Assembly: GCA_015233895.1 (NCBI GenBank)
Contig: JADFXG010000010.1
Coordinates: 1-64,000 of the forward strand
DNA length: 64,000 bases
Direction: 5' to 3'
DNA from: Nitrospirota bacterium
Lineage (GTDB): Bacteria; Nitrospirota; Thermodesulfovibrionia; Thermodesulfovibrionales; Magnetobacteriaceae
The notes under the pieces were generated by a model. The model had not been told where the DNA came from. It made no database searches and saw nothing but the letters and a program-made list of their open reading frames with translations. Of this stretch, positions 11,248 through 13,612 are shown one piece after another (position 1 is the first letter of the stretch; each line of letters begins with the position of its first letter). The translations under genes were made by a program, and so were the position numbers.

Positions 11248-11529
11248 TTAAGCCAGTTTAGCGACCTTTAAGGCCATCCGCGAAATTTTGCGTGATGACG
11301 TATTTCTGTGAATAATCCCCTTAGAAGCGGCCTTAAAAAAAGCGCTCTCAGCCTCAATTAATTGCTTCTGAGCCTCTTCTTTTTTATTTGCGGCAATGGA
11401 TTCCTGCACTTTTCTTGCAAGGGTACGCAGTCTGCTTACTGTCATTTTGTTAATAAGCTGACGCTTCAATGCCTGTCGCGCCCTCTTTTTTACCGACTTG
11501 CTTTTCTTAGGTCTTGATCTTGCTGCCAT
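11248..11529 (-). CDS. rpsT: 30S ribosomal protein bS20
   Basis: A 93-residue, Lys/Arg/Ala-rich helical protein starting MAARSRPKKSKS, the usual S20 N-terminal type with KRARQA and LINKMTVSRLRTL segments. S20 binds 16S rRNA at the bottom of the 30S subunit. Length is normal. The RBS AAGGAG lies 11 nt upstream. A small dual-CxxC gene lies 57 bp upstream on the same strand and may be co-transcribed. Confidence 0.96.
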   Translation of the reverse strand: MAARSRPKKSKSVKKRARQALKRQLINKMTVSRLRTLARKVQESIAANKKEEAQKQLIEAESAFFKAASKGIIHRNTSSRKISRMALKVAKLA

Positions 11530-11586: not shown

Positions 11587-11754
11587 CTATACCGCGTCAC
11601 ACGACCGATTCGAGAGGTAGTTCCACGTGTTAGCGTCTATTTCGTCTATATATTCCGACAGGAGAAAGCGTGCGCCGCAATCCAAGCAGCGTAATTCCAC
11701 CGATCGTCACCTCACTATGAGGTCTAATGGTTTGCCGCAATCACGGCATTTCAT
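11587..11754 (-). CDS. dual-CxxC small protein with in-frame UGA (candidate selenoprotein)
   Basis: A 55-codon frame that is continuous if TGA at 11707-11709 is read as an amino acid. It carries CRDC near the N-terminus, the UGA in context IVR-U-RSVELRC, a second CLDC, and a family-like tail SEYIDEIDANTW ending in SCDAV. The second half keeps the full pattern after the UGA, which is unexpected for a simple nonsense mutation. From memory, protein databases hold a family named dual CXXC motif small (seleno)protein with this layout. The mRNA 16 nt after UGA can form CGCUGC/GCGGCG with a 7-nt loop containing GG, as in bacterial SECIS elements. ATG 11754 has GAGG just upstream (a second ATG lies at 11757). 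The alternative is a recent pseudogene. No sel genes are in the window. Confidence 0.6.
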
Positions 11755-11913
11755 CATTCCTCTTTGTCTTTCCACTGTCAACCACCTCTTTTTATCAGAC
11801 TATCACTATAGCTATATTATATATCATCACAATATATATTTAAAATGCAAGAGGATTTTTTTTATTTCAGGTATTTGACTATTTTTTTTTGTTTTATTAT
11901 AATTACTCTTATA

Positions 11914-12031: not shown

Positions 12032-12045
12032 GTATTAGTATAGGA

Positions 12046-12200
12046 TTTCAGCATCCCGGAACACGGTGCAAGTCCGTGGCAGTCCCTCTGCTGTAAATGG
12101 TGATGAGGGTTGCAGATTTTAGCCACTGCTATGGGGGTTAACCATAGTGGGAAGGCGGCAGCCTACAGGTTAGTAGCCATAAGCCAGAAGACCTGCTGAA
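12046..12200 (+). promoter_or_regulatory. cobalamin (adenosylcobamide) riboswitch
   Basis: The conserved elements appear in order: GGAACACGGTGCAAGTCC (12058-12075), GGCAGTCCC, CTGCTGTAA, GCCACTG (12122-12128), GGGAAGGC (12149-12156), and the B12 box AAGCCAGAAGACCTGC (12181-12196). The intrinsic terminator just downstream supports control by premature termination when cobamide is abundant. It regulates the ThiC-family gene at 12311, which is the basis for calling that gene bzaF and not thiC. Confidence 0.95.
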
Positions 12201-12236
12201 ATTTTAAAGGAATTATCTATTAGGAATCTGATGGTA

Positions 12237-12283
12237 AAGGGTTCCGGAGGACTTTGGTGTCCTTCGGAACCCTTTTTTTTATT
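12237..12283 (+). terminator. riboswitch-controlled intrinsic terminator
   Basis: A 14-bp stem: GGGTTCCGGAGGAC (12239-12252) pairs with GTCCTTCGGAACCC, followed by eight T. It lies between the riboswitch and the gene start, so it is the expression platform. An upstream ATG at 12254 falls inside this hairpin and is not the real start. Confidence 0.93.
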
Positions 12284-12310
12284 GTTAATCTTAAATCAGG
12301 AGGCAGTACA

Positions 12311-13612
12311 ATGACACAAATTGAAAAGGCACAAAAAGGTGAAATCACAGAGGAGGTTAAGGCGGTTGCAGTATGTGAGAGCCTTGACGCTGCGCTTATA
12401 AGCGCAAGGGTAGCCTCGGGTAAAATAACAATCCCTTCTAATCCAAAAAGAAAATCGAAAACTATTGGTATCGGCAAAGGGTTACACACAAAGGTTAACG
12501 CCTCAATAGGTACTTCAACCGACATTGTTAACCCTGAGATGGAAATAGAAAAAGCAAAGATTGCAGAAAAATACGGTGCCGACACAATAATGGACTTAAG
12601 TGTGGGCGGAAATCTGGCTGAAATCAGAAAGTCTGTGATGGATGCCGTAACGCTGCCCTTAGGAACCGTCCCTCTTTATGAGGCATTTGCTGTGGCTGCT
12701 GAAAAATACGGCTCAATCACAGGAATGCCTGAGGAACTGCTATGGGAGGTCATAGAAAGACAGTGCGAGGAGGGGGTGGCCTTTATGGCAATCCATTGCG
12801 GGATAAACAGACTTACCTTAGAGGTACTGAAAAAGCAGCACTACCGGTATGGAGGATTGGTTTCAAAGGGTGGGGCATGTATGGTGGCATGGATGCAGTA
12901 CAACAACAAGGAAAATCCCTTATACGAAAAATTTGACCGTGTTGTTAGTATTTTGAAAAAGTATGACGTAGTTTTAAGTCTTGGTAATGGATTTCGTGCA
13001 GGGGCAATTCATGATGCTACGGACAGGGTTCAGATACAGGAGTTAATTATCAACTGTGAGTTTGCAGAGCTTGGAAGGGAGATGGGTTGCCAGACAATGG
13101 TAGAGGGCCCTGGACACATTCCAATTAACGAGATAGAGGCAAACATCATTTTGGCTAAAAAACTAAGCGGAGAGGCTCCGTTTTATATGCTGGGGCCAAT
13201 TACCACAGACATAGCGCCCGGTTATGACCACATAACATCCGCAGTAGGGGCAGCTCTGTCATCGTCATATGGTGTGGATTTCCTCTGTTATGTAACACCT
13301 GCCGAACACATAGCTTTGCCTTTTCCGGAGGACGTGAGAGAGGGTGTAATAGCAGCAAAGATAGCGGCTCACATCGGTGATATGGTAAAGCTCAGGGATA
13401 CTGAAAGAGATAAAAAAATCAGCAAGGCAAGAAGGAATATGGACTGGCAGAGTCAGTTTTCTCTGGCAATTGATACACAGAGGGCTATTGAGATAAGAAA
13501 TAAAAGGGGGGATGCGAGCGATCACTCCTGCACAATGTGCGGAAAGTTCTGTGCTAACGATATGCTGCAGGGCATGTTTGAAGAACACACCAGAGGGACA
13601 GACAAACACTAA
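12311..13612 (+). CDS. bzaF: ThiC paralogue, probable 5-hydroxybenzimidazole synthase BzaF
   Basis: A 433-residue radical-SAM protein of the ThiC family. ThiC turns aminoimidazole ribotide into the thiamine pyrimidine; the paralogue BzaF turns the same substrate into 5-hydroxybenzimidazole, an oxygen-independent cobamide lower-ligand precursor. The body shows MDLSVGG, MAIHCGINR, MVEGPGH and GPITTDIAPGYDH motifs. The C-terminal cluster motif is CTMCGKFC, Cys spacing C-x2-C-x3-C. ATG 12311 has AGGAGG 7 nt upstream; the earlier in-frame ATG lies in the terminator. The cobalamin riboswitch (instead of a TPP riboswitch) and cobT and cobB in the window favour bzaF. No bzaC/D/E-like genes are adjacent, so the product would be 5-hydroxybenzimidazolyl cobamide. 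A true thiC is the alternative. Confidence 0.85.
   Translation: MTQIEKAQKGEITEEVKAVAVCESLDAALISARVASGKITIPSNPKRKSKTIGIGKGLHTKVNASIGTSTDIVNPEMEIEKAKIAEKYGADTIMDLSVGGNLAEIRKSVMDAVTLPLGTVPLYEAFAVAAEKYGSITGMPEELLWEVIERQCEEGVAFMAIHCGINRLTLEVLKKQHYRYGGLVSKGGACMVAWMQYNNKENPLYEKFDRVVSILKKYDVVLSLGNGFRAGAIHDATDRVQIQELIINCEFAELGREMGCQTMVEGPGHIPINEIEANIILAKKLSGEAPFYMLGPITTDIAPGYDHITSAVGAALSSSYGVDFLCYVTPAEHIALPFPEDVREGVIAAKIAAHIGDMVKLRDTERDKKISKARRNMDWQSQFSLAIDTQRAIEIRNKRGDASDHSCTMCGKFCANDMLQGMFEEHTRGTDKH

Follow-up and report, generated by a model that had tools for sequence, protein, structure and literature searches.

A stop-interrupted dual-CxxC gene between a cobalamin riboswitch and rpsT

The window, that is, the whole 64,000-nucleotide stretch analyzed here (positions 1 to 64,000 of contig JADFXG010000010.1 of the Nitrospirota bacterium assembly GCA_015233895.1), contains a small minus-strand gene located between a cobalamin riboswitch (RF00174, 12032-12214, plus strand) and rpsT (Table 1). 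The original prediction had described this locus as a 55-codon minus-strand frame with a single TGA and a CxxC motif on each side of it, and both points were borne out: reading of the open reading frames with translation table 11 gave one frame from 11754 to 11587 in which the TGA at 11709-11707 is the sole internal stop, and the two motifs are seen in this same frame at residues 3-6 and 23-26. When the TGA is read through, the product has 55 residues (MKCRDCGKPLDLIVRURSVELRCLDCGARFLLSEYIDEIDANTWNYLSNRSCDAV). The in-frame start candidates are ATG 11754, ATG 11757, and GTG 11775, and the choice among them is uncertain. The best Shine-Dalgarno sequence belongs to GTG 11775, and because this codon is in frame and has AAGAGGTGG six bases upstream, the protein may begin there, in which case it would have 62 residues.

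On the plus strand, the cobalamin riboswitch is followed by a terminator-like hairpin (12236-12275) and then by a ThiC-family gene, the whole arrangement occupying window positions 12032-13612. The product of this gene scores 593.8 bits against a ThiC cut-off of 410, and 511 bits against the BzaB (B12 lower ligand) cut-off of 700, which is below that threshold. A link between the ThiC-family gene and B12 control is possible.

Table 1. Features of the dual-CxxC locus, in window coordinates.
Feature	Position	Strand	Basis
CDS, dual-CxxC selenoprotein	11587..11754	-	ATG 11754, stop TAG 11589-11587; NF041197.2 60.1 bits, cut-off 40
In-frame UGA read as Sec, residue 16	11707..11709	-	UGA in 84/90 relatives, Cys in 6/90; purifying selection downstream; full sel set
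SECIS hairpin CGCUGC-UUGGAUU-GCGGCG	11673..11691	-	Fold, synonymous-site constraint, and covariation in relatives
First CxxC, residues 3-6	11737..11748	-	Cys invariant in 90/90 relatives
Second CxxC, residues 23-26, overlapping the SECIS hairpin	11677..11688	-	Cys invariant in 90/90 relatives
Near-C-terminal Cys, residue 52	11599..11601	-	Cys in 79/90 relatives
Shine-Dalgarno-like AAGAGGTGG (11790-11782) and 6-nt spacer before GTG 11775	11776..11790	-	Read from sequence
Promoter-like TTTAAA-17-TATAAT upstream of the dual-CxxC gene	11816..11844	-	Consensus match only
rpsT (30S ribosomal protein S20), next downstream gene, same strand	11248..11529	-	TIGR00029 73.4 bits, cut-off 33

The genome encodes a complete selenocysteine decoding machinery

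Against NCBIfam, the read-through protein matched NF041197.2, "dual CXXC motif small (seleno)protein" (Table 1), with the runner-up at 15 bits; the database family of dual-CXXC small (seleno)proteins that had been mentioned in the original prediction thus exists and is matched above its cut-off. The NF041197 match in a six-frame search of the genome scored 50.1 bits, all 79 rows of our alignment A2 (the window and 78 distinct whole members) matched NF041197 at E 0.001, and Pfam gave only sub-threshold zinc-ribbon matches to the read-through protein.

The genome from which the window derives (G000; 65 contigs, completeness 100) has selB on contig C25 (362.5 bits, above cut-off), a tRNA-Sec with a UCA anticodon (tca) on C31 (70.7 bits), selA on C2 (605.2 bits), and selD on C3 (315.4 bits), so that selA, selB, selC, and selD, the genes to be looked for according to the original prediction, are all present. 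The selD gene (C3:71250-72173, L230) itself holds one in-frame TGA, at the active-site AAG-U-VSK position, and because it does so alongside a full sel set, this genome very probably decodes UGA as Sec at other genes too. At the dual-CxxC gene, SelB would bring Sec-tRNA to the UGA at codon 16, aided by a hairpin formed over the codons of the second CxxC motif, and translation would thus run through to the TAG.

Conservation of the UGA and of the frame that follows it

To place the gene among its relatives, 395 genomes drawn from the phylum were searched for family matches at E 0.001. The dual-CxxC family was found in 152 of the 395 genomes, which puts a number on its spread in the lineage, and above its cut-off in 139. 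Internal stops in the family matches listed were TGA only, never TAA or TAG, and six of the whole-length matches listed had no stop (G241, G243, G337, G235, G186, and G164). From somewhat more than 150 matches we extracted 91 sequences (the window, 30 search loci, and 60 further stretches); the fragment L097, in which the first CxxC is missing, was dropped, leaving 90. All 90 members, window included, share the gapless arrangement C-x2-C-x9-(U/C)-x6-C-x2-C, with UGA at the Sec site in 84 and Cys in 6. The extraction pattern demanded U or C at this site, and the HMM matches likewise show no other residue there; the 84:6 proportion is not the natural UGA:Cys ratio because all six stop-free genomes were deliberately included.

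The presence of the family was compared with that of selB, for which the three best candidates were scored in each of the 395 genomes. A selB above cut-off was found in 172 of them and, by row-by-row tally, in 140 of the 152 family-positive versus 32 of the 243 family-negative genomes. When the 12 family-positive genomes lacking it were rechecked with all candidates scored, none rose above the cut-off.

The frame after the UGA was then compared between close relatives. Over the 39 codons that follow it, the window differs from the same-genus member L065 by 15 synonymous and 4 replacement changes (4, 0, and 16 differences at the 3 codon positions), giving a dN/dS of 0.04, and from L089 by 11 synonymous and 5 replacement changes (dN/dS 0.07). 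These patterns indicate that the protein downstream of the UGA is under purifying selection. Among 483 member pairs with a synonymous difference below 0.6, the median dN/dS was 0.41, with values up to 1.03; we give this figure little weight because the pairs are mostly distant and almost saturated for synonymous change, and because the SECIS itself keeps synonymous positions from varying.

These data bear directly on the idea that the locus is a nonsense pseudogene, in which an ordinary mutation to TGA closed the frame and the remainder is decaying. TGA is a normal stop in table 11, and one relative (G243, see below) does have sel genes in decay, but the same TGA recurs in 84 of the 90 extracted relatives with Cys as the only alternative, TAA and TAG are absent from the matches listed, and dN/dS past the TGA is low. 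We therefore reject the pseudogene, which we consider extremely improbable. The original prediction had named the absence of sel genes, or homologues with neither Cys nor UGA at the site, as signs of a pseudogene; neither was found, since the sel genes are present and all 90 motif-bearing homologues have UGA or Cys. Its preference for a selenoprotein is thus supported by the sel genes, the UGA/Cys homologues, and the NF041197 score, and as far as sequence evidence can tell, we hold the identification as a selenoprotein gene to be nearly certain. In this Nitrospirota lineage, a dual-CxxC gene hidden by a stop codon can be regarded as settled to be real.

Selenocysteine and cysteine forms across Nitrospirota

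The Cys forms are spread over three of the GTDB families drawn (f1, f9, and f10). Genus g35 is mixed, with Cys in G164 and UGA in G178, and genus g5 has Cys in all three sampled genomes, of which G235 and G337 retain selA and selB and G241 has neither. G186, also a Cys form, has neither gene. In G243, another Cys form, selB and selA are left as separate pieces (C97 and C105) and one selA piece has an internal TAA, as if selenocysteine use had been lost recently. Because the g5 Cys genomes G235 and G337 keep selA and selB and G243 keeps sel pieces, the distribution is consistent with an order of events in which Sec would be replaced before the machinery decays, several times over. The Cys forms thus allow the loss of selenium use to be watched.

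Nine UGA-form genomes lack a selB above cut-off, and several of these are incomplete assemblies. Four of them (G170, G205, G307, and G073) have selA, and their missing selB probably reflects assembly gaps. The other five (G140, G215, G389, G349, and G041) have neither selA nor selB above cut-off; the absence of these genes may be due to missing contigs, or the UGA forms may be relics, and G140, with a completeness of 99, is harder to fit to missing contigs. As a separate observation, direct reading of the stop codon in 53 members gave TGA in 25, so that Sec and stop are written with the same codon within one 55-codon gene.

A probable SECIS hairpin over the second CxxC motif

The stem of the predicted hairpin (11691-11673) starts 16 nt downstream of the UGA, and the loop starts 22 nt downstream of it. 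The hairpin is formed in the predicted fold of a 39-nt piece (-9.9 kcal/mol), and this single-sequence fold is unexceptional: 41 of 200 dinucleotide shuffles were at least as stable, as were 36 of 200 for a 58-nt piece. Against a null of synonymous recoding, the mean z was -1.30 for the 84 UGA members versus -1.46 for the 6 Cys members, so overall folding energy fails to separate the two groups.

Constraint on the hairpin was therefore examined by asking which synonymous codons the 84 UGA members use at fixed columns. All 66 Arg codons at +6 are CGC, versus 62 of 413 Arg codons elsewhere in the same genes; the nearly invariant Arg at +34, used as a control, is encoded by CGT (29), AGG (15), CGC (13), CGG (12), AGA (7), and CGA (5). 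Nucleotide +18 is C in 84/84 members, across nine different codons, and the Thr codon at +8 is ACG in 24/25 (37/152 elsewhere). The Cys codons at +7 and +10 are TGC in 79/84 and 80/84, respectively, and those at -13, -10, and +36 in 58/84, 47/84, and 36/76. Fisher p-values for these biases are overstated because related sequences are treated as independent, and since that test ignores kinship, the within-gene control at Arg +34, which has the same ancestry and is written with all six codons, is the better argument.

Base pairing points the same way. Pairs 18-32, 19-31, 20-30, and 21-29 are formed in 84/84 UGA members, pair 22-28 in 81, pair 17-33 in 74, and pair 23-27 in 56. The last of these is made by T-A, C-G, G-C, and A-T combinations in different members. 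It is also formed in 27 of 40 lower-scoring members, mostly Desulfobacterota, retrieved by a DNA scan whose pattern left this pair free; there it is made by other base combinations (A-T 10, G-C 10, and C-G 4), which are compensatory changes. Of the six Cys members, half have T and half have C at nucleotide +18, three carry A at nucleotide 25, and three have lost pair 19-31, so that the predicted SECIS features are mostly gone from this group. A chance hairpin, which folding energy alone could not exclude, is hence rejected, since codon use at fixed columns separates UGA from Cys members; it is the family score and the conservation across relatives, rather than the single-sequence fold, that lift the hairpin beyond chance.

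In the 2026 review PMC13188914, the bSECIS model has a loop of 3-9 nt, a stem of 4-16 bp, at least one G in the first two loop positions, 16-37 nt between UGA and loop, and a minimum free energy of at most -7.5 kcal/mol. The window hairpin lies within these limits for loop (7 nt), stem (6 bp), distance (21 nt), and energy (-9.9 kcal/mol), and misses the loop rule, as scored by script, because the GG of its loop UUGGAUU is at positions 3-4. This position follows from the TTG at codon +8, which makes pair 22-28 a U.U mismatch in place of A-U. TTG is shared with L071, the nearest relative in the set, while most members have ATG or ACG; the same-genus L065 (loop AUGGAAU) and L089 have ATG, an 8-bp stem, and a G in the first two loop positions. 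The window gains a C-G pair at 16-34 that is formed in only 22/84 UGA members. With the U.U mismatch and the shifted GG, recoding may be weaker in the window and in L071. Of the SECIS put forward in the original prediction, the CGCUGC/GCGGCG stem, the 7-nt GG loop, and the start 16 nt after the UGA stand, reinforced by the constraint in relatives; the qualification is the loop-G rule of the published model, which the window's hairpin misses.

The signature at synonymous sites can itself be used to find members. We scanned genome contigs for TGY, TGY, TGA, CGCTGC, GG, and TGC at fixed spacing, which yielded at least 119 stretches; among the 119 matches listed, 83 are family members (family HMM at 20 bits or more) and 36 look like chance, so the DNA signature by itself is specific enough for members to be picked out. 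The members listed come from Nitrospirae/Thermodesulfovibrionia and Deltaproteobacteria/Desulfobacterota, with a few under broader titles such as Proteobacteria. Two genomes of the window's GTDB family, G172 and G381, encode the same protein as Candidatus Magnetomicrobium cryptolimnococcus (L142) and Candidatus Magnetominusculus sp. LBB02 (L176), so that the Nitrospirota family of the window would include these two genera, which are magnetotactic. A candidate viral relative (L110), the sole stretch retained from 20 pattern stretches, was discarded since by-eye reading of its DNA gave an unrelated zinc-ribbon protein without a Sec site.

Predicted fold and possible function of the protein

We consider it highly probable that this is a functional selenoprotein gene with hairpin-directed read-through of the UGA; its product may be a Zn/Fe ribbon with a redox Sec. 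Besides the four invariant CxxC cysteines, the 90 extracted members have near-invariant Tyr at +19 (88), Trp at +28 (87), Arg at +34 (87), Asp at +24 (81), Arg at +38 (80), and Cys at +36 (79). An AlphaFold2 model based on alignment A2 (mean pLDDT 79.6, pTM 0.54) has strands at residues 9-14 and 19-23, with Sec16 in the turn between them, and helices at 32-38 and 41-48; its tail is poorly predicted (pLDDT near 56 for the last residues). Fold searches gave weak generic matches to ZifS, RPB9, and initiation-factor zinc ribbons (Foldseek best E 0.18; VIA best Z 4.1), and sequence matches to solved structures were generic zinc-ribbon or zinc-finger pieces over short stretches (best E 0.00056). The CxxC layout and the model agree with a zinc ribbon and the fold matches are weak; we infer that the protein is a small zinc ribbon in which four Cys hold the metal and the Sec stands apart at the beta-hairpin turn. 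In such a protein the two CxxC motifs would most likely bind one Zn (or Fe), and the Sec-bearing turn would lie between the knuckles, with two helices and a C-terminal Cys-Asp/Asn-Arg tail coming after it. Sec would be a redox-active selenol and none of the four metal ligands, partnered mostly with the near-C-terminal Cys or an external thiol, and could serve thiol-peroxide or metal/sulfide redox in anaerobes; we judge the redox role of the Sec form to be about evenly balanced. The tail Cys is absent in 11 of the 90 members, 8 of which have Sec, so an intramolecular Sec-Cys pair cannot be general and the tail Cys is not required.

Alternatively, the protein might be a metallochaperone or a zinc or iron sensor in which the Sec binds metal or has a structural part. 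The four Cys in zinc-ribbon layout, the weak scores against zinc-binding families (ECs_2282 and HypA among them), and the zinc-ribbon look-alikes by fold would fit this, but the four CxxC cysteines already fill a tetrahedral site and, as judged from strand order, Sec16 would sit in the hairpin turn away from the point where the knuckles meet, and we regard such a role as rather unlikely.

The neighborhoods of 114 members contain lineage-specific neighbors (raw counts, with no null). rpsT is near 4 of the 114 loci, a cluster read as rplM near 16, and one read as truA near 17, all names except the window's rpsT coming from sequence reading. No universally conserved partner gene was found across the 114 neighborhoods, and they indicate no substrate. 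Two recurring cysteine-rich neighbors (15 and 11 loci) had no Pfam match at E 0.001. At seven loci (L023, L047, L157, L172, L184, L213, and L216), a gene for a cysteine-rich protein with a GCDxNCCE motif starts on the same strand -1 to +7 nt after the selenoprotein gene, with which, given this spacing, it is probably co-transcribed; one representative of this protein gave no match against Pfam.

The rpsT, putative rplM, and putative truA neighbors, together with fold look-alikes that are RNA-polymerase and initiation-factor zinc ribbons, raise the alternative that the ribbon attaches to RNA polymerase, to the ribosome, or to nucleic acid and is switched by oxidation of Sec, sensing oxidants for translation genes. 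Zinc ribbons, however, resemble each other whatever their function (Z at most 4.1 here), and the neighbor counts are uncontrolled and vary from one lineage to another; we consider this reading unlikely. Its most specific form, in which the Sec at the hairpin tip, outside the metal knuckles, would act as a selenium-based switch that responds to oxidation and controls transcription or translation in anaerobic members of Nitrospirota and Desulfobacterota, is a speculation that we rate as decidedly improbable. If true, it would make this a selenoprotein for sensing and regulation and not for bulk catalysis.

Comparison with known families

Zinc ribbons such as RPB9, RPB12, eIF2-beta, and ZifS resemble the protein in carrying two CxxC knuckles on a beta-hairpin, with weak similarity in fold and sequence, but they have no Sec and the scores given above are too weak for homology.

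The protein belongs to a known, curated, and published selenoprotein family without an assigned function. In PMC13188914, the only open-licence paper we found that treats NF041197 by name, this entry is listed as "Dual CXXC motif small protein (hypothetical protein OS_HP3)" with the motif RxU and one Sec. A table in the same review files a further entry, "Hypothetical protein DW" with the motif GxU, likewise under NF041197 and keeps it as a separate entry. OS_HP3 also appears in a table of a 2022 review (PMC9312934), and both reviews cite Zhang and Gladyshev 2007 for it. The deep-Sep paper (PMC12013277) reports OS_HP3 of Desulfosarcina widdelii PP31 as the one known selenoprotein that this recent tool missed, and our DNA pattern scan found a family member in this same strain (L150), so that the organism named for OS_HP3 encodes such a protein and cultured members of the family exist. 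In open-licence papers we found no SECIS covariation, phylum-wide survey, or structure for the NF041197 family.

Desulfobacterota members mostly have R-x-U at the Sec site and are without the EYIDEID...W core. With NF041197 itself, the window protein shares the length, both CxxC motifs, and the Sec/Cys site between them (60.1 bits versus the cut-off of 40), and there is no essential difference: Arg directly precedes its Sec (IVRU), a position held by Gly in most Nitrospirota members, and it ends in CDAV where most end in C(D/N)R(A/V).
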